NCBI GenBank assembly: GCA_947372535.1
Contig: CANBUA010000086.1
Location: 1-16,318, forward strand
Direction: 5' to 3'
From: Burkholderiales bacterium
GTDB lineage: Bacteria > Pseudomonadota > Gammaproteobacteria > Burkholderiales > Burkholderiaceae
DNA length: 16,318 nucleotides
The notes below the pieces were generated by a model. That model saw only the letters and a program-made list of their open reading frames with translations, did no database searches and was not told the origin of the DNA. The position numbers and the translations under genes are program-made. Positions within the stretch are counted from its first letter, which is position 1. The number at the start of each line of letters is the position of its first letter. This document shows, one piece after another, positions 454-14,560 of this stretch.

Positions 454-1566
454 TCAACTTTGGTTGAGGAACACACCTTCGATGTCCAGCGAGCTGCGCA
501 CGCCCACATCCGCCTTGTGCGACGTCAACCATGTGCTGGCTGACGCGTAGCCCATGTCGTGGAGCTGCTGCAAGAAGGCCCAGTCCGAGTTGAACTTGCT
601 CGATGCGTTGTAGGGCAGCAGCCCTTCGTCGTCGGAGACCATGTGCATGTTCAGGTTCTTGTAGCGACCGGCATCGATCTTCTGCTCGCTCAAAAGTTGC
701 TTCACGAAAGCGATCGCCCGCAACTCGCCGATCAGGCTCGTGTTGAAGGTGATCTCGCTCAAGCGGTCGATGATGTCCATGCTGCGCGTGGGCGTGTCGG
801 CACGGTGCAGGGCATTGATCTTGATCAGCAGGATGTCCGAGGCGTCGGTGTTGTAGATCAGCGGGTAGAGCGCCGGATTGCCCGTGTAGCCGCCGTCCCA
901 GTATGCTTCGCCATCGATCTCGATGGCCTGGAACACGTAAGGCAGGCAGGCCGAGGCCATCAGCGCGTCGATGCTGAGTTCTTCATCGGCGAACACCTTG
1001 GCCTGGCCGGTGCGCACCGAGGTGGCCGTCACGAACAGGCTGATGCCGCAGTGCGCGCTGCCCTGGCGCAGGGCCTCGATGTCCACGTGACGGTTGAGCA
1101 CGTCCTTGAGCGGGTTGAGGTTCAGGGGGTTGAACTCGTAGGGGCTGAAGGCCCGTGTGAACATGTTCATCCACTGGTAGACCGGGAACTGATCGAAATT
1201 GAACTCAGCCTTGAGCGTGCCGTTGGACTGGATGGACAAGGGCGAGAAGATGGGCCCATGCCGGCTGACGTCCTGCCAGAAATCCCGCAAGGCCTGCTGG
1301 GCCTGAACACGTGCGGCTTTCTCGTCCCCTTGGACGTGGCCTTTCGCGTAACCGCTGAGCATCACCGCACCATTGAGGGCGCCTGCGCTGGTGCCCGACA
1401 TGCCGGCAATGTTCAAGCCATCGTCTTCCAGCAGCCGGTCCAGCACGCCCCACGTGAAGGCGCCGTGCGAGCCACCGCCCTGCAAGGCCAGGTCGACCGG
1501 GGGACGCGAAGGCCTCGTTGTCTTCTTTTTCTGGGGCGTCTTGAACAGCTTGGGCGAGGTACTCAT
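454..1566 (-). CDS. Patatin-like phospholipase family protein
   Basis: A 370-residue predicted lipid acyl hydrolase. The patatin fold is recognisable: the glycine-rich oxyanion-hole loop QGGGSHG (about residues 29-35), the nucleophile elbow G-T-S-A-G with Ser60, and the D-G-G motif with Asp224, giving the Ser-Asp dyad. A basic N-terminal stretch (PQKKKTTRPSRPP) precedes the catalytic domain, and no signal peptide or membrane helix is evident, so a cytoplasmic or membrane-peripheral location is likely. Substrate cannot be read from sequence; family members cleave phospholipids or polyhydroxyalkanoates. The gene is divergent from recA, with 172 bases between the two start codons including the LexA-type box, and lies 34 bases upstream of metH in the same direction. 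The Shine-Dalgarno is weak. A large plus-strand frame across it is a shadow. Confidence 0.9.
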   Translation of the reverse strand: MSTSPKLFKTPQKKKTTRPSRPPVDLALQGGGSHGAFTWGVLDRLLEDDGLNIAGMSGTSAGALNGAVMLSGYAKGHVQGDEKAARVQAQQALRDFWQDVSRHGPIFSPLSIQSNGTLKAEFNFDQFPVYQWMNMFTRAFSPYEFNPLNLNPLKDVLNRHVDIEALRQGSAHCGISLFVTATSVRTGQAKVFADEELSIDALMASACLPYVFQAIEIDGEAYWDGGYTGNPALYPLIYNTDASDILLIKINALHRADTPTRSMDIIDRLSEITFNTSLIGELRAIAFVKQLLSEQKIDAGRYKNLNMHMVSDDEGLLPYNASSKFNSDWAFLQQLHDMGYASASTWLTSHKADVGVRSSLDIEGVFLNQS

Positions 1567-3324: not shown

Positions 3325-5199
3325 TCACGCCGGCACGAAAAAGGCCGGGCTGTCGGCGGTCCAGTCCGGGGCGCCATTGATGTCGGTGCTAAAGAAAAGC
3401 ACGGTGTTGCCATCGATGTCCTGAGTGCGGAACTGGTAGACCGCGCGCAGACCAGGGCCGTCAGCCGAGTAGGCATGGAAAGCGATGCCGTCGGCCACCC
3501 AGCCCAGGCTGGACAAGTAGGCAGGGTCAGTCGAGTAGTGGTAGCGCTTGCCATTGGCCGGGCCGCTGGTGGGCCCGTAGAACCGATATACCGGCGTCGT
3601 GCCGGCGGCGGGCGCGGCCAGGGCCGAGAACGCACCCCCATCGAGCGTCATGCCGGCTGGCGTTTCCGTACCAATGGTGTAGTAGTGGCCTGCTGGGCCG
3701 CTGGCTGGTTTGGCACTGAACTGGCGCACTTCGGCCGTCTCACTCCAGGCGCTCGATAGCTTGCGGATCACATTGAGCGTGATGGTGCTGATGGGCGTGG
3801 GCGCTTGTCCGGCCAATTCGGGCGCCAGGCCGTAGGTCCAGTCCGTGGTGCCCGCATTGAAAACCGTGCCTTGTTTGCCGCCACGGCTGAACACGCCGAT
3901 CGCGGCATAGCCCGAGCGTTCGCCCGAGAAGCCCAGCGCCTGGGCTTGCGCGTCCCAGTTGCTCGCATCGGCTTGGGCCAGGATGCGCAGCGTGGGCGGC
4001 GTGCCGTCCAGGCCCGTGGGGTAGAAGCAGCCGTCGGTGCCACGGCGGAAATCGGCCGCATCGGTCTCGTAGCCCACATAGGCGCTGCCAAAGCTGACGT
4101 TCTGGGTGAAGTTCAAGCCGGCAAAGGCCCAGTGGCTGGGTTGCTGCACCACGAAAGGCGAGGGCGGGCGAGGCTGGGCATTGGTCCAGGACGCGCCCCG
4201 CAGGAAGCTCAGGCCGGTCGTTGTATTTTCGGGGTTGGCGGGGACGATGTCCTGCCAGTTGATGGTCTCCAACGCGCCATTGGTTTTGTCCAGGCTGGCC
4301 GACTTGTAGCAGACCATGGTCCGGTCCGTGCCGCCAGTGGCATCGAAGCGAACCTGCCACCAGCAGGTGTTGCCGCCCAGGATCGCGGCATTGCCGCCGC
4401 CGGCCACGAAAGCATCCAGGTTCTTGCGCATGGCTGACGACCAATATTCGTCGTGCCCTGCCGTGATGAACAGCTGATAGCCTTTGAGGAGGTTGGTATC
4501 CGCATGCAGGTCGATGCTGGTGCAGTAATCGACCGTGATGCCTTTGGATGCAAGCCACCGAACGAGGTTGGGTGTCCAACCATCGAAGCCGATGTTCCAG
4601 GGGTCGCTGAAGGGGCGGTTGAACGAGACCTGCGATGCGCGCAAGCCCATGCTGGAGTTGTACTCGTACAGGCTCTTGCCGCCGTAGGGGTTGTAGGCCT
4701 GCGCCGTGGTCACGGGGACCTGAACCAGGATCTTGGTGCCGGTCGCGGGCTTGGCGGCTCGCACGACGAAGGGCACGCAGCAGCCGTTGCCATCCGAGCC
4801 GAAGGTGGCCCAATAAACACCCGAAGGCCAAGTCGTCGGGATGCTCAGGCGGTAGGTGCTCGCCCAACGGCAACCCTTGCTGTAGGCATCGCTGGGCACG
4901 ATTCGGTTGTACAGCACGGCGGTGGTGGTGAACATCACGGTGTCTGGCGCGCCCATTCGGGTGATGGTCACGGCGTAGAACTTGCCGATCAGCCAGTTGC
5001 CTTTGGGATCCCGCGCACGGAACTCGATCGTGCCACCTGGCTTGACCGAGGTGGTGTCCGCGTAGGCCTCCAGCGAGCTGGTGCCGGCCTGCGCAGAGGG
5101 CAGCAGCAGCGGCGAGCCCATGCCCACGGAGGCCTGCACAAAACTGCGGCGGCTCACGCCGGCGGGGCGCTTGGGCTCGGAGGAGTCAGACGAGGACAT
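3325..5199 (-). CDS. Tat-exported protein with N,N-dimethylformamidase large-subunit-like domain and C-terminal DUF5648-like module
   Basis: A 624-residue protein of unknown substrate. Residues 1-38 are a twin-arginine signal: SRRSFVQAS at 16-24, a hydrophobic stretch, and an AQA cleavage site near residue 38, so it should be exported folded. The middle part resembles the large (beta) subunit of N,N-dimethylformamidase: AYNPYGG (168-174), then TAGHDEYWS (246-254) followed by a glycine-rich AAILGGNTCWWQ strand. In characterised dimethylformamidase the mononuclear iron is held by two Tyr and a Glu, and the H-D-E here (249-251) plausibly matches the His/Glu of that site; this is from memory of the family. 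The last roughly 95 residues (VYRFYGP, HYSTDPAYLSSLGW, GIAFHAY, VYQFRTQD, FFSTD) resemble the DUF5648 repeat of secreted proteins. No small-subunit gene is nearby, so amidase activity is not assured. It is divergent from the EPS genes. The Shine-Dalgarno is weak. Confidence 0.8.
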   Translation of the reverse strand: MSSSDSSEPKRPAGVSRRSFVQASVGMGSPLLLPSAQAGTSSLEAYADTTSVKPGGTIEFRARDPKGNWLIGKFYAVTITRMGAPDTVMFTTTAVLYNRIVPSDAYSKGCRWASTYRLSIPTTWPSGVYWATFGSDGNGCCVPFVVRAAKPATGTKILVQVPVTTAQAYNPYGGKSLYEYNSSMGLRASQVSFNRPFSDPWNIGFDGWTPNLVRWLASKGITVDYCTSIDLHADTNLLKGYQLFITAGHDEYWSSAMRKNLDAFVAGGGNAAILGGNTCWWQVRFDATGGTDRTMVCYKSASLDKTNGALETINWQDIVPANPENTTTGLSFLRGASWTNAQPRPPSPFVVQQPSHWAFAGLNFTQNVSFGSAYVGYETDAADFRRGTDGCFYPTGLDGTPPTLRILAQADASNWDAQAQALGFSGERSGYAAIGVFSRGGKQGTVFNAGTTDWTYGLAPELAGQAPTPISTITLNVIRKLSSAWSETAEVRQFSAKPASGPAGHYYTIGTETPAGMTLDGGAFSALAAPAAGTTPVYRFYGPTSGPANGKRYHYSTDPAYLSSLGWVADGIAFHAYSADGPGLRAVYQFRTQDIDGNTVLFFSTDINGAPDWTADSPAFFVPA

Positions 5200-5391
5200 G
5201 TCGGCAACCTAGGGTAAGGACTGAGATCCCGAGATCCTAAGGCTTTGCGCCCGATCCCGCTCGCCGCAAGCTCGTTCATTCAAGGGGGGTGCAGCGCCGC
5301 CATGGCTCAGTTGCGGGGTGGCTGTGCCGGGGGGCGCATGCTAGTATTTCCCCTCGGTTCTTGACCCCAATATGACAGGAGATGATGGCTC
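5200..5391. promoter_or_regulatory. Divergent intergenic region between the dimethylformamidase-like gene and the EPS operon
   Basis: These 192 bases must hold promoters for both directions, but no convincing -35/-10 pair is visible on either strand. It contains two GAGATCC copies one base apart (5223-5229 and 5231-5237), a further GATCCC at 5253-5258, and an interrupted inverted repeat GCTTTGCG (5242-5249) / CGCAAGC (5265-5271). These could be a regulator site. A strong AGGAG at 5377-5381 serves the EPS export gene. Confidence 0.35.
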
Positions 5392-6174
5392 ATGGTGCTC
5401 GCGAAAGGAAGTAACTCGAATTCGCGGGTTGAGTCAGGAGCGGTCTCTGTTGTTCGGCTGCTCGGCTGGGCGATGCTGTGGCTGGTGGCCAACGTCATGC
5501 CTGCTGCCTGGGGCCTCAGCCAGGCGGCCGAAAGCGTCGAATCACCCGCAGCCATGGCCGTTCAGCCCTCGGGCTACCGCGTGGGTCGTGGTGATGAACT
5601 GAACTTTCGTTTTTATTACACCCCAGAGCTCAACACGGTCGCATCGGTGCGTGCCGATGGCCGCGTGGCCTTGCCCTTGATCGGTGACATCGAGGTCGCT
5701 GGCTTGAGCGTGCAGGCTTTGGCGGCCAAGGTCGAAGCGGCTTTGGTGGGACGCGTCAAGCGTCCGCAAGTGGTGGTCAATGTGCAGGGTGGCAGCGGCT
5801 CGCAGCGCGTGTTTGTGGGCGGTGAAGTCGGGCACCCTGGTGCGCAGCCCTTGCTGGGGCCTCTGACCGTGCTGCAGGCCGTCATGGCCGCAGAAGGCTT
5901 CAAAGACACGGCCCAGCCAGCCAGCGTGGTGGTCCTGCGTGCCAACGCCAACGGCTCGCAGACCGAGCCCACGCTGCTCAAGGTGGACTTGGCTGGTTTG
6001 ATGAATGGCCAGCCTGGTGCGCGCGATGTGCTGTTGTCGGCGCAGGATGTGGTGATCGTGCCCCGCAGTGGGGTGGCCAACCTCAACCTCTGGATCGATC
6101 AGTACCTGCGGCGTAATCTGCCGATCAACTTCGGCGTCAACTACACGGTCAATCAGAACCGAGGCAACCCATGA
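5392..6174 (+). CDS. Polysaccharide export protein (Wza/GumB-like, Poly_export and SLBB domains)
   Basis: Export component that passes EPS through the periplasm and outer membrane. The 260-residue product has a hydrophobic signal-like segment around residues 20-46, a Poly_export domain from about 61 to 132 (GYRVGRGDELNF, ADGRVALPLIGDIEVAGLSV, RPQVVVNV) and one SLBB-type domain from about 138 to 190 (VFVGGEVGHPGAQPL, TVLQAVMAAEGF). It ends with LWIDQYLRRNLPINFGVNY, a tail common in GumB/EpsE-type proteins. It is shorter than E. coli Wza (379 residues) and has no lipobox cysteine. The ATG at 5392 has AGGAG 10 bases upstream; two nearer ATGs are out of frame. It is the first gene of the EPS run, and its stop overlaps the next start (ATGA). 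Confidence 0.9.
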   Translation: MVLAKGSNSNSRVESGAVSVVRLLGWAMLWLVANVMPAAWGLSQAAESVESPAAMAVQPSGYRVGRGDELNFRFYYTPELNTVASVRADGRVALPLIGDIEVAGLSVQALAAKVEAALVGRVKRPQVVVNVQGGSGSQRVFVGGEVGHPGAQPLLGPLTVLQAVMAAEGFKDTAQPASVVVLRANANGSQTEPTLLKVDLAGLMNGQPGARDVLLSAQDVVIVPRSGVANLNLWIDQYLRRNLPINFGVNYTVNQNRGNP

Positions 6175-7628
6175 ACCGGGATGCGGGCGAGTTGAGCAGC
6201 CTTGGCGCCCAGGTCGAGGCCTTGGCTCCTGCTCAAGCATGGCCAAACCATTGGTCGCAAGTCAGGCAGGATGCGCCCCGCATCGGCTTGGTGTTCGGCC
6301 TGGGGCTGGCGATCACCTGCGTGGTGGCCCTGATGGCCAGCAAGCAGTACACGGCTGAAGCCTCGCTGTTGTTGCGCTTGGGCCGCGAATACATGTACAC
6401 GCCTGAAGTGGGCGATGCCAATGGCCGCACGCCCTTGGCCTACGACCGCGAGCAGACCATTCAGTCAGAAACACGCATCCTGCTCAGCCGCGACGTGCTG
6501 GAAGCCGCGGTGGACCAACTGGGCGTGGCCTACGTCTACCCCAAGCTGGCGCAAGGCGATGCGCCGCCTGACATGAAGCGCGGCCGGGCCGTGCTCATGC
6601 TGGAGAAGGCGCTGGACGCCGAGTTGCTCAAGAACACCAACCTGATGCAGGTACAGCTCAAGCACGCCGATCCGCAAGTGGCGGCGCGCACCTTGGCCGT
6701 TTTGATCGATGCCTATCTGCAAAAGCGGCAGGGCGTGTTCGCAGGCATCGGCATCAAGTCGGCCGAAGCTGAGTTCAAGGCGCAAGAAGGCAAGCTGCAG
6801 GCCGTGGAGGCCAAGCTGAGCAAGTTCAAGCGGGCCCGTGGCTTCGTGGCCTTCACCGAAGAGCAAAGCCTGCTGCTGGCGCAGCGCAGCGCGCTGGAGC
6901 TCAAGCAATCCGATGTCGCCTTGTCACAAGCGCAAGCTGGTGGCCGAGTCACCTCTTTGCGCACGCGCATGCCTGCTGTGCCGGCCGAGGTGACCTTGTC
7001 GAGCGAAACGCAGCGCAGCGATGCGGCCGAAAGCACGCTCAAACTGCTGATGGACCTCAAGCTCAAGGAGCGGGATGTCAGCGCCAAGTTCAACGATACC
7101 GAGCCCATGGTGCAGGACGTCAGGCAGGACATTGCCCTGGCCAATGAGCACCTCAAGCTGTTGCGCTCCGATCCGCCGCGTTTGATCAAGGTGGGCCGCA
7201 ATCCGGTGAGGGATGCGGCCGAGGCCGACCTCGAACACTCGCTGGCCGACCAGAGTCAGGCGAGCGCCGGGCAATCGTCCCTGGCGACGCGCTTGTCCAG
7301 CATCGACAAGCGGCTGGCGCAAATGGCCGACAGCGAACGCGACTGGCACGACCTGGACCGCACCCGTCGCCTGGCCGAAGCCGACTACGAGGCCGCCGCC
7401 AAGCGTCTGCGTGAAGAGCGCATGATGGCCGATTTGGACCGCCAACGTCAGTCGAATGTGACCATGGTGCAAGCCCCCAAGGTGCCGCTTGAAGGGCGTT
7501 CGGCCCGAGCTGCAATTGTGGGCGTGGGCATGGCGCTGAGCCTGGCGGCGGCTTTGCTGACCGCCTTCATCTGTGCCTGGCGGCGTGGCGAAGTCGATGC
7601 GTCGGACGACCGTCGGCGGGTATCATGA
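6171..7628 (+). CDS. Chain-length determinant / GumC-like polysaccharide co-polymerase without kinase domain
   Basis: Inner-membrane co-polymerase that controls EPS chain length and docks the export protein. The 485-residue protein has a first transmembrane helix near residues 38-56, a Wzz-type domain after it (YTAEASLLLRLG, TIQSETRILLSRDVLEAAV), a long periplasmic coiled-coil region of about 250 residues rich in Ala, Leu, Lys and Glu, then a proline-containing QAPKVPLEGRSARAA and a second helix near 447-469, with a short basic-acidic tail. There is no Walker motif or tyrosine-rich C-terminus, so it resembles GumC or the N-terminal part of Wzc rather than a bacterial tyrosine kinase. Start and stop overlap both neighbours by 4 bases (ATGA at each junction), implying translational coupling. 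Confidence 0.88.
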   Translation: MNRDAGELSSLGAQVEALAPAQAWPNHWSQVRQDAPRIGLVFGLGLAITCVVALMASKQYTAEASLLLRLGREYMYTPEVGDANGRTPLAYDREQTIQSETRILLSRDVLEAAVDQLGVAYVYPKLAQGDAPPDMKRGRAVLMLEKALDAELLKNTNLMQVQLKHADPQVAARTLAVLIDAYLQKRQGVFAGIGIKSAEAEFKAQEGKLQAVEAKLSKFKRARGFVAFTEEQSLLLAQRSALELKQSDVALSQAQAGGRVTSLRTRMPAVPAEVTLSSETQRSDAAESTLKLLMDLKLKERDVSAKFNDTEPMVQDVRQDIALANEHLKLLRSDPPRLIKVGRNPVRDAAEADLEHSLADQSQASAGQSSLATRLSSIDKRLAQMADSERDWHDLDRTRRLAEADYEAAAKRLREERMMADLDRQRQSNVTMVQAPKVPLEGRSARAAIVGVGMALSLAAALLTAFICAWRRGEVDASDDRRRVS

Positions 7629-8935
7629 AAGCCGCCGCGCCTGCCCGCGTCCTCGCTCAGTTGAGCGGCACGTGGTGGCTGCTGGCCTTGGCACTTTTGC
7701 TTTACCTTGTGCTGTCGCCGCCGCTCCTGGCTGCCTTGGGCGTGCCTTATGACGCGCCAACGGGCAGCTTCCCCGTGAAGATCCATCCAGGGTCCTATGT
7801 GTTGATGGCGGCTTGCCTGGTGGCTTGGCAAGGCGTGGGCTTTGGCCTGGGCGGACTCCAGCGCGCCTGCCGAGAGCAGCCTTTGCTGGTGGGCTACCTG
7901 GCTTGCATGGTGGCCAGTTTCACCTGGGCCGTGGCACGGCATGGCCCAGGCGGTCTGGCCTATTTCATCGACACCTTGTTCATGCCGGCAGTCGCGGGTC
8001 TGTTGATCGCCAGGCAACCAGAGGCGGCCCGAATGCGCCTGCTGCACATCGTCATGGTGATGGTGTTGGTCAATGCCTTGCTGGCCGTGATCGAGTACGC
8101 CTTCAAGGCACACCTCGTGCCCGGCGTGATGGGGGCGGGCGAGTTGTATGACGAGGATTTTTTTCGGTCCGCCGCACTGCTGGGTCACCCCTTGACCAAT
8201 GCCAAGGTCACCGTCACAGCCATGCCGTTTTTGTGGTGCTTGCCTTGGACCACGCCTTGGCGCTTGAGCGCGGCCGTGTTGATGTCGCTGGCCTTGCTGG
8301 CCTTCGGTGGGCGGACCAGCCTTGCGGTTGGGGGCTTGGTGTATGGCCTGGTGGGTGGGGTGATCGTGCTCAGGCGCTTGCTGGCAGGGCGCTTCACTTA
8401 CCTGCAATTGACTGGCGGGAGTGTGGGGTTGCTGTTCGGTGGCAGCCTGGTGGCCATGGCCATCTTGTTGTCAGGCCTGGGCGAGCGCATCTTCCACCAA
8501 TTCACCTGGGACAACAGTGCGGACTCGCGCCTTCTGGCCTGGCAAACGCTCGACTATTTCAACGGCTTGGACCTCTGGCTGGGTCTGCCCATTGACCAGA
8601 TCGAGCACCTGGCCGAACGCGTGGGCATTGACCTGCGCTTTGGCACGATTGAGAACTTCTGGGTCTATCAACTGCTCTTGTTGGGCATCATCGGTTTCGT
8701 GCCCTTTGTCTTGGGCATCGGCCTGATCATTGCGCACTTCATCAAGCGGTCCACCCCGGTGTTGTGGCTGGCCATCCTGGTCTATTTCGTGGTGGCTTCG
8801 GGCACCAACTCACTGGCGTCCAAGACGATCAGCCTCTTGATGCTGTCGGTGTTTGTGCATGCCGCTGTGCGTGAGAAAAATCGGCAGGTGTCGCCTCGTC
8901 GGCAAGCCCTGCGCATCGAAGAAGCGTGGGGGTAG
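7625..8935 (+). CDS. VpsF/Wzy-like polysaccharide polymerase (O-antigen ligase family membrane protein)
   Basis: A 436-residue integral membrane protein with about ten to twelve hydrophobic helices, suited to joining lipid-linked repeat units on the periplasmic face. Support: FFRSAALLGHPLTNA (about 179-193), GGRTSLAVGGL (228-238), the long periplasmic-type loop with NSADSRLLAWQTLDYF (297-312) and NFWVYQLLLLGIIGFVPF, features of the Wzy/WaaL/VpsF superfamily, where conserved Arg residues in the loops matter. Sequence divergence in this family is large, so the polymerase role is inferred from topology, these motifs and its place beside export, co-polymerase and flippase genes. A ligase role is the main alternative. 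It overlaps the previous gene by ATGA, and one base separates its stop from the next start. Confidence 0.82.
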   Translation: MKAAAPARVLAQLSGTWWLLALALLLYLVLSPPLLAALGVPYDAPTGSFPVKIHPGSYVLMAACLVAWQGVGFGLGGLQRACREQPLLVGYLACMVASFTWAVARHGPGGLAYFIDTLFMPAVAGLLIARQPEAARMRLLHIVMVMVLVNALLAVIEYAFKAHLVPGVMGAGELYDEDFFRSAALLGHPLTNAKVTVTAMPFLWCLPWTTPWRLSAAVLMSLALLAFGGRTSLAVGGLVYGLVGGVIVLRRLLAGRFTYLQLTGGSVGLLFGGSLVAMAILLSGLGERIFHQFTWDNSADSRLLAWQTLDYFNGLDLWLGLPIDQIEHLAERVGIDLRFGTIENFWVYQLLLLGIIGFVPFVLGIGLIIAHFIKRSTPVLWLAILVYFVVASGTNSLASKTISLLMLSVFVHAAVREKNRQVSPRRQALRIEEAWG

Positions 8936-8936
8936 C

Positions 8937-10964
8937 ATGGTCAGAGTTCGTATTTTTTATCCGGCCGATCCTGCAGGTGTCGTGCCCGGTGGCATCGACA
9001 CCTTCATCCGTGGCGTGATCAAGTCGGCCCCGGCTGACGTCCTCATCAGCCTGGTGGGCATGAGCACGGATCCGGCGCGGCGCCCGGTCGGTGTCTGGCG
9101 GACTTGCCACATCGGTGATCGACCGTTCGAGTTCTTCCCCGTCATCGCCGTTGGCAACGCGGGCCAGCGCGGGCGCTTGCCCTTGTCCGTGCGCTTCATG
9201 ATGGGCGTGCGGCGACATGGCGCGGCCTTGAAAGACGATTTCGATGTGTTCGATTACCACCGCATCGAGCCCTTGTTCCAGCATGCGCGTGACCCACGGC
9301 CCAAGAGCATCTTTTTCCACCAAGATCCAGGCTACCTGAGGCTGAGCGCCTCCGACAACCTGTGGCGCCGCCTGCCGGCGGTGTACGAGAAGCTGGAAGC
9401 GCGGGCCATGCGGCATGTGGACAGCATCTGGTGCGTGCGTGAAAGCGGCGTGAAGGTCTTGCGCGAGCGCTATCCTGATCTGGCAGGGACGACGCGTTTT
9501 GTGCCCACCTGGGTGGACACCTCCGTGTTCTCCCCGATCCATGGGGCCGAGCGCACGCAATTGCGGGCCTTTCTTGGGCAGCGCCAGGGCCTGAGCGCCA
9601 AGGCCTCGTGGGTCATTTCGGTAGGACGCCTGGACACCCAGAAGAACCCGCAGCGTTTGTTGGAAGCCATCTCGCGCCTGAGTGACCAAGGGCGTCCGCT
9701 GCATTGGTTGATCATCGGCGATGGCGTGTTGCGTCCGGCTTTGGCCGACTCGGTGGTGCGGCTTGGCTTAAGCCAGCACGTTCGTTTCCTGGGCTTGCTA
9801 CCACCCGACGAGATCGCGCAATGGCTGCGCGTGGCTGACGTGTTCGCCATGTCATCGGCCTACGAGGGCATGCCCATGGCGCTGATGGAGGCCATGGGCT
9901 GCGGCCTGCCGGCGGTGGTGACCGATGTGGGCGAGGTCCGCCGTCTGGTGCGCCCAGGCATCAATGGCGCCATTGCAACCGAGCAAAGCGACGAGGCATT
10001 CACCGAGGCCTTGCGACTGGGCCTGGATCACGCTGAAGCCTGGCGCGGCCAGCCCGCGTGCGACGCGGTGTTGCCTTATCAACCCGGCAAGGTGCTGGCG
10101 CCCGTCTACGAGAACTACCGTGCGCTGGCCAGGGCGCATCGCCGAGGTGGCGAGGCGTATGAGTTTTCCAGCCCGATGCCTTTTCAACGTGTGATCGGCG
10201 TGGGCGTGGACAACATCAAGCGCAAGACCGCCGTCGATCGCATCATGAATTGGGCCTACAACCAGGAGTCGCGCTACGTGTGTTTTTGCAATGCGCACTC
10301 GGCGGTGCTGGCGACCACCCGGGCTGATCACCGGCGTGCTTTGGCCAATGCCGACATGGTGGCGCCCGACGGTGCCCCGGTCGCCTGGACCTTGTCTGTC
10401 AAAGGTGGGCGGCTTCAAAAGCGCGTCGATGGCCCGGGCATGATGCTGCAGCTTTGCAAGCTGGCGGCCCTCGAAGGGGTCCGCATTGGGCTGCTGGGAT
10501 CAACGCCCGAGGTGCTGGAACAGTTGATCTCGCGTTTGCGCCTGGCCTATCCCGGCTTGCAGATCGCCTATGCCTACTCGCCACCGTTTCGCGACTTGTC
10601 AGAAGAAGAGGACAAGCTGATGTGCGAGAGCGTGTCCGAAGCCGGGGTCGGCCTGCTGTTCGTGGGCCTGGGTTGCCCCAAGCAGGAAGCCTGGATGCGT
10701 GCGCACAAGGGGCGCATCCCTGCTGTGATGTTGGGCGTCGGCGCCGCCTTCGATTTCCACGCCGGGGCCATTCAACGGGCACCAGCGCTGATGCGCGGCA
10801 CGGGCCTGGAATGGGTCCATCGGCTGGCCTCCGAGCCGCGTCGCCTGTGGTGGCGCTATTGCACCTTCAACATGATGTTCGTGTCCAAAAGCGCGCTCGA
10901 CCTCGGCCGGATCATGGGGCGTCGCTTGAAGGCCTGGCTCATTGAACTTGGTGTGGCGCGGTGA
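8937..10964 (+). CDS. Fused glycosyltransferase: N-terminal GT4 domain and C-terminal GT26 (WecG/TagA/GumM) domain
   Basis: A 675-residue protein carrying two glycosyltransferases. Residues 1-400 form a GT-B enzyme of family GT4: VVPGGIDTF near the start, VGRLDTQKNP (229-238), LIIGDG (258-263) and the E-x7-E motif with Glu310 and Glu318 in SAYEGMPMALMEAMGCG. Residues about 412-675 are a complete GT26 domain: GVGVDNI, FCNAHSAVLA (450-459), ADMVAPDGAPVAW with Asp478, RVDGPGMM, GLGCPKQEAWM (577-587), GVGAAFDFHAG (600-610) and the C-terminal GLEWVHRLASEPRRLWWRY that in TagA completes the membrane-associated active site. Asp478 probably matches the catalytic base proposed for TagA. Both should act on lipid-linked EPS precursors at the cytoplasmic face. 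The ATG at 8937 follows GGGGG and begins a normal GT4 N-terminus; an in-frame upstream start would add 28 unlikely residues. The next gene overlaps by GTGA. Confidence 0.93.
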   Translation: MVRVRIFYPADPAGVVPGGIDTFIRGVIKSAPADVLISLVGMSTDPARRPVGVWRTCHIGDRPFEFFPVIAVGNAGQRGRLPLSVRFMMGVRRHGAALKDDFDVFDYHRIEPLFQHARDPRPKSIFFHQDPGYLRLSASDNLWRRLPAVYEKLEARAMRHVDSIWCVRESGVKVLRERYPDLAGTTRFVPTWVDTSVFSPIHGAERTQLRAFLGQRQGLSAKASWVISVGRLDTQKNPQRLLEAISRLSDQGRPLHWLIIGDGVLRPALADSVVRLGLSQHVRFLGLLPPDEIAQWLRVADVFAMSSAYEGMPMALMEAMGCGLPAVVTDVGEVRRLVRPGINGAIATEQSDEAFTEALRLGLDHAEAWRGQPACDAVLPYQPGKVLAPVYENYRALARAHRRGGEAYEFSSPMPFQRVIGVGVDNIKRKTAVDRIMNWAYNQESRYVCFCNAHSAVLATTRADHRRALANADMVAPDGAPVAWTLSVKGGRLQKRVDGPGMMLQLCKLAALEGVRIGLLGSTPEVLEQLISRLRLAYPGLQIAYAYSPPFRDLSEEEDKLMCESVSEAGVGLLFVGLGCPKQEAWMRAHKGRIPAVMLGVGAAFDFHAGAIQRAPALMRGTGLEWVHRLASEPRRLWWRYCTFNMMFVSKSALDLGRIMGRRLKAWLIELGVAR

Positions 10965-12115
10965 CGGCCTTGGCGGCCGGTGAGCCCTCTCAGGGTGACT
11001 GTTCTGCGGCTGTGCTTCAGCAGGTCGCCGTGGTGTTGCCGCATTTGCGCATGGGTGGGGGCGAGTTGTCCATGCTGCGCCTGGCCAGTGGCCTGGCACG
11101 CCTGGGCGTCCAGGTCGAGTTGATCGTCAATACCTTGAGCACGGCCGAGTTGCCGGTGCCCATGGGCTTGACGGTCACGGCGCTGGGCCATGAAGGCACG
11201 CTGTCGGGCATCAAGGCTTTGGCGGCGGCCCTGGTCCGCTCCAGGCCACAACTTGTGTTCAGTGCCTTTCCGCATACCAACCTGGCCGCGCTGGCCGCTA
11301 CCCGGTGGGCGGCTGTCGGTGCCCGTTGCGTGGTGTCCGAGCATGCGCCCTTGTCGCATCAGATCGCAAGAGAAGGAGGCTGGCGTTACCGGCTCTTGCC
11401 GCCGCTGGTTCGCTGGGCTTACCCGCGTGCCGACGCCGTGGTGGCCGTGTCGCAAGGTGTGGCGAACGATCTGGATGCCATGCTGGGCAAGCATCGGCCG
11501 ATCAGCGTGATCGCCAACCCCGTGATCGACGAGGCGGAGCAACTGGATCCCAAGGCCGCCCCGGGCCATCCCTGGCTGGCTGACCCGAGCCTGCAAGTGT
11601 TGATGAGCGTCTCGCGCCTCAGCGTGGAAAAAGACATCCCGACCTTGATGAGGGCCTTTGCCAAGTTGCACGCCAGCCGCCCTGATACGCGCCTGCTGCT
11701 GGTCGGCGAAGGACCGGATCGCCCGCGTTTGCAAGCCTTGCGCACCCAACTCGGCTTGGAGGCTGTGGTTGATTTGCCTGGGCAGGTGGCCCAACCTCGG
11801 CGCTGGATACAGCATGCCGCCGTGTTCGCCCTGGCGTCACAATATGAGGGCTTCGGCAATGTCCTGATTGAGGCCTTGTCCTGCGGCGTGCCCGTGGTTT
11901 CAACAGATTGCCCGGTGGGCCCGCGTGACATCCTGGCCGATGGCCGCCGTGGTCAACTGGTGCCGGTTGGCGATGTCGACGCCATGGCGGTGGCCCTGGC
12001 GCGGGCTCTGGATGAGCCGATGCTTTGTCTTGACAGCGGCAAGGCCTATGCCGAGGGCTTCACGGCCTCACGGTCCAGCCAGGCCTACTTTCAGTTGTTC
12101 GAGTCCCTGCTGTAG
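10961..12115 (+). CDS. GT4 family glycosyltransferase
   Basis: A 384-residue GT-B glycosyltransferase that should add a sugar to the lipid-linked EPS repeat unit in the cytoplasm. Visible motifs are HLRMGGGELSMLRLA (28-42) in the acceptor-side loop, VVSEHAP (124-130), AVVAVSQGVANDL (159-171), SVSRLSVEKDIPTL (216-229), LLVGEGPDRPRL (247-258) and the E-x7-E pair Glu296/Glu304 in SQYEGFGNVLIEALSCGVP. This arrangement is typical of GT4 retaining enzymes; donor and linkage cannot be read. It starts with GTG at 10961 inside the previous stop codon (GTGA); the first 20 residues are poorly conserved but no better start exists before the GGGE loop. Eight bases separate it from the flippase gene. Confidence 0.92.
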   Translation: MTALAAGEPSQGDCSAAVLQQVAVVLPHLRMGGGELSMLRLASGLARLGVQVELIVNTLSTAELPVPMGLTVTALGHEGTLSGIKALAAALVRSRPQLVFSAFPHTNLAALAATRWAAVGARCVVSEHAPLSHQIAREGGWRYRLLPPLVRWAYPRADAVVAVSQGVANDLDAMLGKHRPISVIANPVIDEAEQLDPKAAPGHPWLADPSLQVLMSVSRLSVEKDIPTLMRAFAKLHASRPDTRLLLVGEGPDRPRLQALRTQLGLEAVVDLPGQVAQPRRWIQHAAVFALASQYEGFGNVLIEALSCGVPVVSTDCPVGPRDILADGRRGQLVPVGDVDAMAVALARALDEPMLCLDSGKAYAEGFTASRSSQAYFQLFESLL

Positions 12116-12123
12116 AGCTGCTC

Positions 12124-13554
12124 ATGCTGCTGCGACACACCCTGCTTTACCTGCCGACCCAATTGCTGTCGCCTCTGGCCCAGCTCGGGTCCATGATCCT
12201 GTGGACGCATTGGCTGGCACCTGAGGCCATGGGCATGTTCACCCTGGTGTCCGTGATGCAGGAGATGGCGTACCTGACTTGCCTGGGCTGGTTCTCGACC
12301 TATGCCCTGCGCTACCTGCCGTCAGGGGCGCAGCCGGATGCGCTCAAGCGTTACCTGGCCACGGAGAACGTCGTGGTGCTGGCCTGCCTGGTGATGAGCA
12401 TGGTGGTGGCCATACCCGCCACCTTGACGCTGCCTCAAGCAGAGCACCACATCGGTACTTTCCTGGCCGTGGGCCTGTTCTTCGCAACGCGCGCCCTCAA
12501 TGCGCATTACGGCGAGCGCGCGCGGGCCCAGTCGTCCTTCGTGAGCTATGCCGTTTTGCAACTGGCTGGTCCTGTCGGGGGATTGTTGTTGGGATGGATG
12601 GCCTTGCAGCGCATCGAAGCCAGTGCCCAGGTGCTGTTGCTGTCCTACGCCTTGGCGCAATTGGTGGGCAGCCTCCTGGCCTTGCCTGGCCTGGGCATGC
12701 ACTGGCGGCTCAAGGCCCCCGACGCGACCTTGCTGCGGCAGGCGCTGGCTTTTGGCGCGCCGGTCCTGGGCCTTTCGGCCCTGGGTTGGGTGGCCGAGAA
12801 CCATGTCCGCTACCTGGTGCAATGGCAATCCGGGGCGGCGGCGCTGGGCCTGATGATCGTGGGCTGGTCGCTGGGCCGGCGTTGTGCGTCGGTGGCCGCC
12901 ATGCTGGTCACGACGGCGGCTTTCCCGCTGGCGGCGCGCCTCTTGAACGAAGGCCGACATGACGAAGCCCTGCGGCAATTGCGCGTCAATGCTGCCTTGA
13001 TGCTGGCCGTGCTGGTGCCCGTCACGGTGGCCATGCAGTTGGTTGGCCCTGATTTGGCTGCTTTGGCCGTGGCCCCCGCGTACCGGGACATCACGGGTCA
13101 GCTTCTGGGTTTGTCGGTGCTGGCCGGCATGTTGCGCAACCTTCACGTGCACGCGACCGATCAACTGATGCTGTTGCATCGGCGCATGCGCATGATCGCC
13201 CACGTCAGCGTGATCGAGATCCTGGCCTGTGGCCTGGCCTCAATGCTCGGGCTTTGGCTGAAGGGCGTTCACGGCGCGGTGATCGGCCAGGCGGTGGGCT
13301 CCACCCTGGCGTTGGGTGTCAGCCTGTGGTGGGCCCGCAGTCAGCTCGGGTTTCGATGGCCCTGGATGGACACGGCCCGCATCGTGGCGGCCTCTGGCGT
13401 GATGGCCGCTGCCTTGCTGGCCTGGCATCCGCATGCCGGCGTCCTGGGCTTGGTCCAGTGGGTGGCGTGGGGCGCGGTGGTGTACCTCCTGGCTTGCGCC
13501 ATGCTGTTCCAGGCGGTGCTGCGTCAGCAATGGCGTTTGCAGCGCATGGCCTGA
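12124..13554 (+). CDS. Wzx-like polysaccharide flippase
   Basis: A 476-residue membrane protein with about twelve to fourteen hydrophobic helices and short loops, the pattern of the MOP/PST exporter superfamily. The N-terminal helix pair (LLYLPTQLLSPLAQLGSMILW, then HWLAPEAMGMFTLVSVMQEM) is typical: Wzx proteins usually carry a G-x-F motif at this point. It would move undecaprenyl-diphosphate-linked repeat units across the inner membrane for the polymerase encoded upstream. The assignment rests on topology, length and operon context, since members share little identity. It lies 8 bases after the GT4 gene; the Shine-Dalgarno is weak (AGAG), suggesting coupling to upstream translation. Confidence 0.87.
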   Translation: MLLRHTLLYLPTQLLSPLAQLGSMILWTHWLAPEAMGMFTLVSVMQEMAYLTCLGWFSTYALRYLPSGAQPDALKRYLATENVVVLACLVMSMVVAIPATLTLPQAEHHIGTFLAVGLFFATRALNAHYGERARAQSSFVSYAVLQLAGPVGGLLLGWMALQRIEASAQVLLLSYALAQLVGSLLALPGLGMHWRLKAPDATLLRQALAFGAPVLGLSALGWVAENHVRYLVQWQSGAAALGLMIVGWSLGRRCASVAAMLVTTAAFPLAARLLNEGRHDEALRQLRVNAALMLAVLVPVTVAMQLVGPDLAALAVAPAYRDITGQLLGLSVLAGMLRNLHVHATDQLMLLHRRMRMIAHVSVIEILACGLASMLGLWLKGVHGAVIGQAVGSTLALGVSLWWARSQLGFRWPWMDTARIVAASGVMAAALLAWHPHAGVLGLVQWVAWGAVVYLLACAMLFQAVLRQQWRLQRMA

Positions 13555-13666
13555 ACAAAGCGACCACTGATACGCATTTGTCACGCTCAGCGCTGCCCCA
13601 TCCCGCCACAATGATGCGCTGCGGCACCTTGTGAGCCGCTTCATCCGCCAAGGGCAAGGGGTTTCA
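13555..13666. other. Short gap between the flippase and the GH12 gene
   Basis: These 112 bases carry no open reading frame worth calling and no convincing promoter: TTGTCA at 13578 and CACAAT at 13607 are 23 bases apart, too far for sigma-70. An AAGGGG at 13656-13661 is the likely ribosome-binding site of the GH12 gene. The GH12 gene may be read through from the EPS operon. Confidence 0.4.
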
Positions 13667-14560
13667 ATGGGTGCTGGACAGACACACAAGCTGACAGTCA
13701 GTCGGCTCGCAAGCGCATTTTGCTTGACGGGCTTGGTGGCTTGCGGCGGCGGTGGGCCAGCATCTGGTGCCTCGCCGGCCGCCACGGGGACCGTCGTCCA
13801 GACCATCAGCTGCTCGCCGGATTTCCACCTGACCCGCGCCGATGGCAGCATCCTGTTCAACAACACTTGGAACGCCGTCGCCGCCGGCTCGCAGCCCTGG
13901 TCGCAATGCCTGCAAAGCCGCACCGTCAACGGTGGGCCGACACAGCATGGCTGGCGCTGGTCCTGGCCGCTGTCCGGCGGGGCGCTTTACGCCTACCCTG
14001 AACTGGTCGTCGGTGCCAAACCCTGGGAGACCGGGCCGGGCAATGACTCGCGTTTTCCCATCCAATTAAGTCAGGTCAACACCCTCAACCTGAACTTCAG
14101 CGTCGAGACCCAGGCCACCGGCAGCCGCAACCTCGCGGCGTCCATCTGGATGATCAGCACGCCTCAGGTGGCCGCCCCGCCCGTGTTCTCCGACATCAAG
14201 GCCGAGGTCATGATCTGGACGGACTACACCGATGACATGGTGGCCGACCCCGGTACAACCACCAAGCGGGGCGAGTTCACCGATGCCAGCGGCCTGCAAT
14301 GGGAAGTCTGGGCTGACGAGACTTGGGGCGATGCCTCCGGCGGCGCGAGCAACCAATGGGTCTACGTGGCCTACCACCTCAAGCCCGGCCAGCGCCGCAG
14401 CAGCGCCAACATTGATGTGCGCGCCATCCTGCGCCATGCCGCCATCACCTTGCACCTGCTCGACACCGCCTGGTACGTGGCCGATGTGGAGCTGGGCAAC
14501 GAGCTCGTGTCCGGCCAAGGCGAGACCTGGCTGAGCAATTTCGCCCTCACCGTCAATTGA
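13667..14560 (+). CDS. Glycoside hydrolase family 12 lipoprotein (endo-beta-glucanase-like)
   Basis: A 297-residue predicted lipoprotein. After a basic n-region the hydrophobic segment ends in the lipobox L-V-A-C with Cys26, followed by Gly, which favours outer-membrane sorting. The mature part is a GH12 beta-jelly-roll: FNNTWNA (64-70), YPELVVGAKPWE (110-121), NLAASIWM (155-162), KAEVMIWTDYT (178-188) with Glu180 as the expected nucleophile, and WYVADVELGNELVSGQGETWL (269-289) with Glu279 as the expected acid/base. GH12 enzymes are mainly beta-1,4-glucanases or xyloglucanases that retain configuration. The ATG at 13667 is chosen because AAGGGG lies 5 bases upstream and it gives a proper lipoprotein signal; an in-frame GTG at 13631 would add 12 residues. 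Its position after the EPS genes suggests trimming, release or remodelling of the polymer; a nutritional cellulase is the alternative. Confidence 0.88.
   Translation: MGAGQTHKLTVSRLASAFCLTGLVACGGGGPASGASPAATGTVVQTISCSPDFHLTRADGSILFNNTWNAVAAGSQPWSQCLQSRTVNGGPTQHGWRWSWPLSGGALYAYPELVVGAKPWETGPGNDSRFPIQLSQVNTLNLNFSVETQATGSRNLAASIWMISTPQVAAPPVFSDIKAEVMIWTDYTDDMVADPGTTTKRGEFTDASGLQWEVWADETWGDASGGASNQWVYVAYHLKPGQRRSSANIDVRAILRHAAITLHLLDTAWYVADVELGNELVSGQGETWLSNFALTVN

Follow-up and report, generated by a model that had tools for sequence, protein, structure and literature searches.

The assembly of xanthan in a Wzx/Wzy pathway requires GumM of the glycosyltransferase family GT26 and GumH of family GT4, which are separate proteins. 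In the window, the stretch of 16,318 nucleotides from a Burkholderiales bacterium that was analysed here, members of the same two CAZy families are joined in one polypeptide encoded at positions 8937 to 10964. The equivalence with GumM and GumH drawn in the initial annotation is based on this family membership and is putative. Two-domain glycosyltransferases are already known as a kind. The locus nevertheless raises the questions whether this chain is genuine, whether both of its domains are active, how they came to be joined, and what a joined pair would contribute to polysaccharide assembly. To our knowledge, the coordination of cytoplasmic glycosyltransferases with the Wzx/Wzy/PCP export complex is still an open question. 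The reading that we favour, and hold to be rather probable, is that of a bifunctional, membrane-associated repeat-unit glycosyltransferase of a Wzx/Wzy-dependent exopolysaccharide pathway, in a lineage that seems to have lost a pseudokinase-PCP link proposed for its relatives.

Results

Frame, domains and structural model of the fusion protein

The gene is one unbroken frame of 675 residues on the forward strand, from an ATG at 8937 to a stop codon at 10962-10964 (Table 1). An alternative TTG start 84 bases upstream would give a protein of 703 amino acids; the closest homologues (P0002, P0003 and P0007) begin at the ATG. The initial annotation had described the frame as a full GT4 domain followed by a full GT26 domain, and the Pfam search bears this out. 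PF00534 matches residues 221-361 (E 1.6e-31, 109.6 bits against a cut-off of 26.4), PF13692 matches residues 226-360 (E 3.7e-31), and PF03808 matches residues 472-641 over positions 1-168 of the 168 of its model (E 6.8e-56, 189.1 bits against a cut-off of 27.4). The N-terminal half of the GT4 domain gave a weak match to PF13439 under the cut-off (E 0.0043). The motifs named in the initial annotation all lie where it had placed them, namely Glu310/Glu318, CNAHS at 451-455, PDGAP at 477-481, GLGCPKQE at 577-584 and FDFHAG at 605-610. Among the NCBIfam models, TIGR00696 for the GT26 superfamily reached 154.5 bits, above its cut-off of 69. The next nearest models, which are EpsA in the case of GT26 and EpsE/stp2 in that of GT4, were all far under their cut-offs, and the model of the TarA N-acetylmannosaminyltransferase (NF041710) was not reached, with 102.5 bits against an equivalog cut-off of 350. 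The Rfam search gave no match above the gathering score.

The AlphaFold model of the fusion has a mean pLDDT of 89.7 and a pTM of 0.65, with pLDDT values below 50 across the linker (406-414) and a long C-terminal helix at 634-674. The equivalent of residues 398-416, which contains the linker, varies from 16 to 58 residues across 71 relatives. By structure comparison of the model, the GT4 part resembles MshA (3c4q, TMt 0.80-0.81) and the GT26 part TagA (7mpk, TMt 0.91-0.92, rmsd 1.9). A sequence search of the PDB likewise points to GT4 plus GT26, in accord with Pfam, NCBIfam and the model. Because a pTM of 0.65 does not fix the placement of the domains relative to each other, the model lends no support to channelling between them.

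Table 1 Features of the fusion gene, of its cluster and of the neighbouring GT4 gene in relatives
Feature	Positions	Strand	Basis or remarks
Wza-type export protein (Poly_export, SLBB)	5392..6174	+	PF02563, 69.9 bits, over cut-off
Probable Wzz/PCP without kinase domain	6171..7628	+	PF02706 and TIGR03007, both under cut-off
PCP C-terminal end, docking-type tail motif missing	7578..7625	+	Comparison with pseudokinase-bearing relatives
VpsF-family protein, probable Wzy polymerase	7625..8935	+	NF038256, 249.6 bits, cut-off 150
GT4-GT26 fusion gene	8937..10964	+	675 aa; frame, Pfam, homologues, AlphaFold model
GT4 domain, residues 1-399	8937..10133	+	GT-B fold, E310-x7-E318, R231, K236, H128
Linker, residues 400-413	10134..10175	+	Low pLDDT, length variable in relatives
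GT26 domain, residues 414-650	10176..10886	+	N452, D478 (TagA Asp65), R496, Q583, E584, R629/R636/R640
End of C-terminal helix, residues 651-675	10887..10961	+	Possibly membrane-associated, by analogy with TagA
Second GT4 gene, without N-terminal GINT1_N part	10961..12115	+	Pfam, comparison with relatives
Wzx-like flippase	12124..13554	+	PF01943 and NF050818 HfsF, both under cut-off
GH12-like glycoside hydrolase	13631..14560	+	Pfam, locus comparison
Next GT4 gene with GINT1_N part, relatives	L001 4544-7288; L002 12700-15324; L007 12632-15394		Pfam

Gene cluster and genomic setting

The genes for Wza, PCP, VpsF, the fusion, the second GT4 and Wzx are adjacent or overlapping on the forward strand, with four-base overlaps between Wza and PCP, PCP and VpsF, and the fusion and the following GT4 gene. 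The cluster probably encodes a polysaccharide pathway of the Wzx/Wzy type, with the Wzx and PCP assignments lying under the curated cut-offs. No priming enzyme (PF02397) was found among the eight proteins of the cluster region scanned by Pfam. PF02397 is present in all nine genomes that carry the fusion and in none of them on the contig of the fusion; in three genomes with split genes (G005, G006 and G008) one copy lies about 12-19 kb away. With no priming enzyme linked to it, the cluster by itself does not reveal the whole pathway.

Together with a DMFA2_C/DUF5648 gene, the cluster (window 3325-14560) sits between recX and sucC. In all three loci examined from the genus Aquabacterium (L125-L127) recA, recX and sucC are continuous without the cluster, so that about 11 kb have apparently been inserted in the window. 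In 39 of 42 genomes of this genus the best match shares 89-94% identity with the RecA of the window, and three gave no match; the host is thus probably a related burkholderial. In L001, the DMFA2_C gene lies on the other side of its cluster. A gene for a patatin-like phospholipase (454-1566, reverse strand) is found upstream of recA in the window.

The GT4 gene that follows the fusion carries a long N-terminal GINT1_N part (PF24793) in all three relatives scanned by Pfam and lacks it in the window. BLAST also detected this part in G441 and in G444, where it forms a frame of its own, and did not find it at E 1e-8 in L116, L118 and L120. A remnant of GINT1_N in the window was considered and rejected: the sole match is a stretch of 30 residues inside the end of the fusion gene, and it comes from the part in which the L001 frame overlaps the fusion gene. 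Genes of glycoside hydrolases accompany several of the clusters. A GH5 (cellulase family) gene precedes VpsF in L002 (7302-8576), L007 (7526-8704) and L003 (134-1444); none was observed in the window or in L001. GH12-like genes lie behind Wzx in the window, in L001 and in some other relatives.

Pseudokinase module of the relatives and the PCP tail

Forty of the listed homologues (the best 120 of 412) have at least 850 residues, and 39 of these possess an extra C-terminal domain; P0107, whose end is an unrelated stretch and not a pseudokinase, was left out of this count. For two such third domains NCBIfam gave EpsG and further tyrosine autokinases of polysaccharide systems as weak matches under the cut-off. 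A profile built from 28 stand-alone relatives found VpsO (6u1q, E 1.4e-24), CapB, Etk and Wzc among PDB entries. This kinship rests on the sequence profiles, as the lists of the structure search with the three-domain model were filled by GT4 and GT26 chains. The Walker-A lysine is replaced by threonine in all 39 fused copies. It is found in none of 89 near stand-alone copies (two gapped) and in two of 28 far ones (two gapped). The Walker-A' aspartate is present in none of the fused rows, in 22/89 near and in 23/28 far stand-alone copies, and the Walker-B aspartate in 39/40 fused rows (P0107 included), 89/89 near and 27/28 far copies. Homology to BY-kinases combined with loss of the Walker-A lysine identifies the third module, as judged from these alignments, as a BY pseudokinase that is most degenerate when fused. 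Caution is required in that two of four ordinary kinase-like neighbours (L025 and L036, stand-alone proteins from other betaproteobacterial clusters) also lack this lysine and have arginine instead; thus its loss alone is not peculiar to the pseudokinase family of the fusion.

The fusion is immediately followed by a separate pseudokinase gene in G002, G003 (for each of its two copies), G007, G411, G441, G444 and G456, and in G468 the pseudokinase is part of the chain itself. In the latter genome (L121 4829-9087) the order is Wza, PCP and the GT4-GT26-pseudokinase gene, whose first possible start codon overlaps the stop of the PCP gene; the 16 kb read there contained no gene resembling VpsF, Wzx or the second GT4. 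The window protein and its cluster are devoid of a pseudokinase, with no such Pfam domain and a best tblastn E of 0.18, which is noise. A hidden pseudokinase in G001 was likewise rejected, as the kinase-like matches there reach at most 84.5 bits and the nine real ones at least 222 bits.

Two BY pseudokinases, EcpK from Myxococcus and HfsB from Caulobacter, are considered to act by attaching to the cytoplasmic C-terminal tail of a PCP that has no kinase domain (PMC12004946). A docking-type tail, some 26-29 residues long and bearing the motif LG[LIV]P[LMV]LxA[IV]P, occurs in the PCPs of all eight pseudokinase-bearing loci with a readable PCP (G002, G003 C56, G007, G411, G441, G444, G456 and G468) and in neither of the two without pseudokinase, the window and G001, where a short unrelated end takes its place. 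This tabulation omits G003 C105, whose PCP lies outside the sequence read at that locus, G004, which has the tail and whose pseudokinase region would lie past the contig end, and P0002-P0011 from the clade of the window. A similar tail motif is also found in PCPs beside two ordinary kinases (L005 and L049). By analogy with EcpK and HfsB, the PCP tail is probably the contact site of the pseudokinase in the relatives. The window and G001 fall into one clade (SH-aLRT 100), and the joint absence of pseudokinase and tail thus counts as a single evolutionary event. The pattern is suggestive of a loss of the pseudokinase-PCP link in the lineage of the window, in which both partners would have disappeared together.

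A farther-reaching interpretation is that the BY-kinase module docks on the PCP tail and thereby places repeat-unit synthesis at the polymerase, the window being secondarily uncoupled. We give this somewhat less than an even chance. It draws on the third domain in 39 of the best 120 of 412 homologues, the kinship with VpsO, CapB, Etk and Wzc, the lack of the Walker-A lysine in fused and near stand-alone copies, the distribution of the tail, the position of the triple fusion in G468 directly after the PCP gene, and the EcpK and HfsB precedents (PMC12004946). It is weakened by the single event behind the joint absence, by the separate pseudokinase in seven of the eight loci, where docking could concern the PCP alone, by the missing lysine in two of four ordinary kinase-like neighbours, and by G468 being the only genome with the triple chain, and one in which VpsF, Wzx and second-GT4 genes were not detected nearby. 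In its full form, as a single-chain assembly line in which a dead BY-kinase, attached or alongside, would tether sugar assembly to polymerisation and export and the window would be a natural deletion experiment, the proposal is tentative.

Catalytic residues and selective constraint

The favoured reading of a bifunctional repeat-unit transferase demands two active domains. Residues were compared in an alignment of 71 of the 121 fused proteins (that of the window and the 120 listed homologues). Within the GT4 domain H128, R231, K236, E310 and E318 are invariant in all 71, among which we take E310/E318 to be the E-x7-E site and R231/K236 the nucleotide-binding Arg/Lys pair of GT4. Within the GT26 domain D478, R496, Q583 and E584 are invariant and N452 is kept in 70/71. 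D478 aligns with Asp65 of TagA, and N452, R496, Q583 and E584 are the equivalents of Asn39, Arg83, Gln167 and Glu168; in PMC6493773, Asp65 is described as the catalytic base and the roles of the other four residues are likewise given. R629, R636 and R640 are kept in 71/71, and the alignment is gapped where Arg221, an active-site arginine in the C-terminal appendage of TagA, would pair. Loss of catalytic residues in close homologues, which the initial annotation had held to be fatal to its reading, was not seen, the nine core positions being unchanged throughout the 71 proteins.

Between the window and L001 the dN, dS and dN/dS values are 0.24, 1.31 and ~0.18 for the GT4 part, 0.26, 0.96 and ~0.27 for the GT26 part, 0.91, 1.86 and 0.49 for the linker (17 codons) and 0.33, 0.48 and 0.70 for the last 25 residues (23 codons), all from this one pair and with dS near saturation. 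These values suggest that both domains are under constraint and that linker and tail are much less constrained. Both glycosyltransferase domains are apparently active.

It is accordingly improbable that one domain serves as a non-catalytic scaffold or regulator and the other alone transfers a sugar. This possibility gains some weight from the position of Thr37 of TagA, a sugar/donor contact, which is Phe450 in the window and phenylalanine in 124 of 126 fused GT26 domains. The same position is variable in stand-alone proteins too: 99 unfused GT26 have Ile (61), Leu (13), Ala (10), Val (8), Phe (5) or Thr (2). Threonine here, present in only two of the 99, is a mark of TagA-like members rather than a defining feature of the family. 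The unchanged core residues and the low dN/dS of both domains also speak against a scaffold.

Two glycosyltransferase domains in one chain could also act in alternation to polymerise a two-sugar backbone, like dual-domain capsule polymerases, rather than build a repeat unit, and the matches by structure to the triple model include the solved capsule multi-enzyme Cps3D (8qoy). We consider this very improbable, because the cluster's own probable Wzx and VpsF/Wzy would be superfluous and because an Und-PP-sugar is the substrate of TagA, the GT26 member whose structure is known (PMC6493773).

Distribution and origin of the fusion

Both Pfam domains are present in all 120 listed homologues (the best 120 of 412; 84% to 51% identical). 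The search returned 412 proteins below E 0.001 among 7,998 scored, with a full-length query that favours fused relatives. Ten copies of the full fusion were found in nine whole genomes, G003 containing two, of which C105 and the copy of G456 look nearly identical in that score and frame length are equal. Codon-position composition is even along the frame. A frameshift, sequencing error or misassembly joining two genes, against which the initial annotation had cautioned, is so improbable in view of this recurrence and evenness that we reject it.

The fusion is sparsely distributed. In the family of G001 (399 genomes) 20 match at 1e-100, with full length in G001 only; one of 399 genomes has the fusion in the family of G002, and in the order of G003 two of 399 match, one of them (G944) with a lone GT4. 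For these three surveys the two best candidates per genome were scored, so misses are possible. At the level of the genus, with up to 11, 22 and 10 candidates per genome scored for G003, G001 and G007, respectively, the fusion was found in 1/42 genomes for G001 and 1/89 for G007. The genus of G003 gave strong matches in 9/81 genomes, comprising seven with the full fusion, G004, where it is cut by the contig end, and G005, where the genes are split. In G005 (Rubrivivax gelatinosus; L005 9143-11998), GT4 and GT26 are encoded on opposite strands by genes that converge.

Unfused GT4 and GT26 genes lie adjacent and in the domain order of the fusion in L006 (Nitrosovibrio) and L061 (Omnitrophota). 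The initial annotation had regarded the order of the domains, reversed relative to the presumed reaction order, as notable. In view of these split pairs a functional meaning is unnecessary and we do not retain it, since the order may just preserve the gene order. Of the 126 fused domains in the GT26 tree, 125 group in a single clade (SH-aLRT 91) neighboured by L006, and 101 of 120 rows of the GT4 subfamily among the matches listed are stand-alone by length. Both trees were made by a quick method, and their only support values are SH-aLRT. The GT4 tree is not rooted, an Omnitrophota row lying on a very long branch and the midpoint root falling among fused rows. Among its labels, L109 counts as stand-alone only because its gene runs off the end of the contig, P0214 (401 aa on a contig of 2,572 bases) may be cut too, and L112 is a second, GT4-only match in G468. 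From gene order and the GT26 tree, and not from a rooted GT4 tree, we infer that the fusion arose by joining of an adjacent GT4-GT26 gene pair.

The exceptional row is P0114, which is placed among stand-alone rows in the GT4 tree and just outside the fused clade plus L006 in the GT26 tree. It probably represents a second, independent joining; alternatively, a single ancient fusion may have been split again in places. Cohnella has another, distant chain of GT4 and GT26 (L010, 10550-12538), a probable independent fusion as well.

Discussion

The domains and their catalytic residues, the fusion, the gene context, the pseudokinase of the relatives and its absence here together with the tail can be read from sequence, and on these features we base the proposal of a bifunctional repeat-unit transferase. 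A phosphoglycosyltransferase encoded elsewhere would provide the Und-PP-sugar, unlinked priming being presumed. The GT26 domain would then add the second sugar with inversion and with Asp478 as base, as TagA does, and the GT4 domain the third with retention. The separate GT4 would add a further sugar, and Wzx, VpsF/Wzy, PCP and Wza would flip, polymerise and export the product. In many of the relatives a BY-kinase homologue devoid of catalysis, either a protein of its own or attached behind GT26, would contact the PCP tail. Donors, acceptors and the order of reactions in this scheme are inferred, as are membrane attachment and physical coupling.

The initial annotation had proposed that the fusion couples two successive sugar additions on one lipid-linked acceptor. 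Two apparently active glycosyltransferases in one chain within a Wzx/Wzy-type cluster make such coupling plausible, and the model leaves the relative positions of the domains unsettled. The suggested anchoring by the GT26 tail agrees with the C-terminal helix at 634-674, which is like the TagA appendage; that appendage is membrane-binding (PMC6493773). By this analogy, the helix might hold both additions at the membrane.

BY pseudokinases acting with PCPs are already known. Among the papers listed by searches of open-licence full texts, no title or abstract start refers to a GT4-GT26 fusion or to a glycosyltransferase fused to a BY pseudokinase, and neither a GT4-GT26 nor a GT4-GT26-pseudokinase chain is described in the accessible parts of PMC13310844, PMC3684757 and PMC9850573. 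A chain with two transferases for the repeat unit, joined in relatives by a pseudokinase of the PCP-binding type, would make the coordination of sugar assembly and export directly testable, with the cluster of the window as a natural uncoupled counterpart. The wider fusion family merits more attention than the copy in the window, and the larger result lies outside positions 8937-10964.

Compared with known systems, the GT26 part shares with TagA/TarA and the WecG/TagA/CpsF group the fold, the equivalents of the catalytic Asp65 and of Asn39, Arg83, Gln167 and Glu168, and the C-terminal helix. In contrast to TagA/TarA, it sits behind a GT4 domain and has Phe450 in place of Thr37. With MshA and BshA, the GT4 part has the common GT-B fold and the E-x7-E site, but it belongs to a separate subfamily that is fused to GT26. 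The likeness to EcpK/HfsB-type systems consists in the kinase-less PCP and, in relatives, in the BY-kinase homologue without Walker-A lysine and the PCP tail as its probable contact. Unlike in those systems, many relatives fuse the pseudokinase to the GT4-GT26 chain, whereas the window contains neither pseudokinase nor tail.
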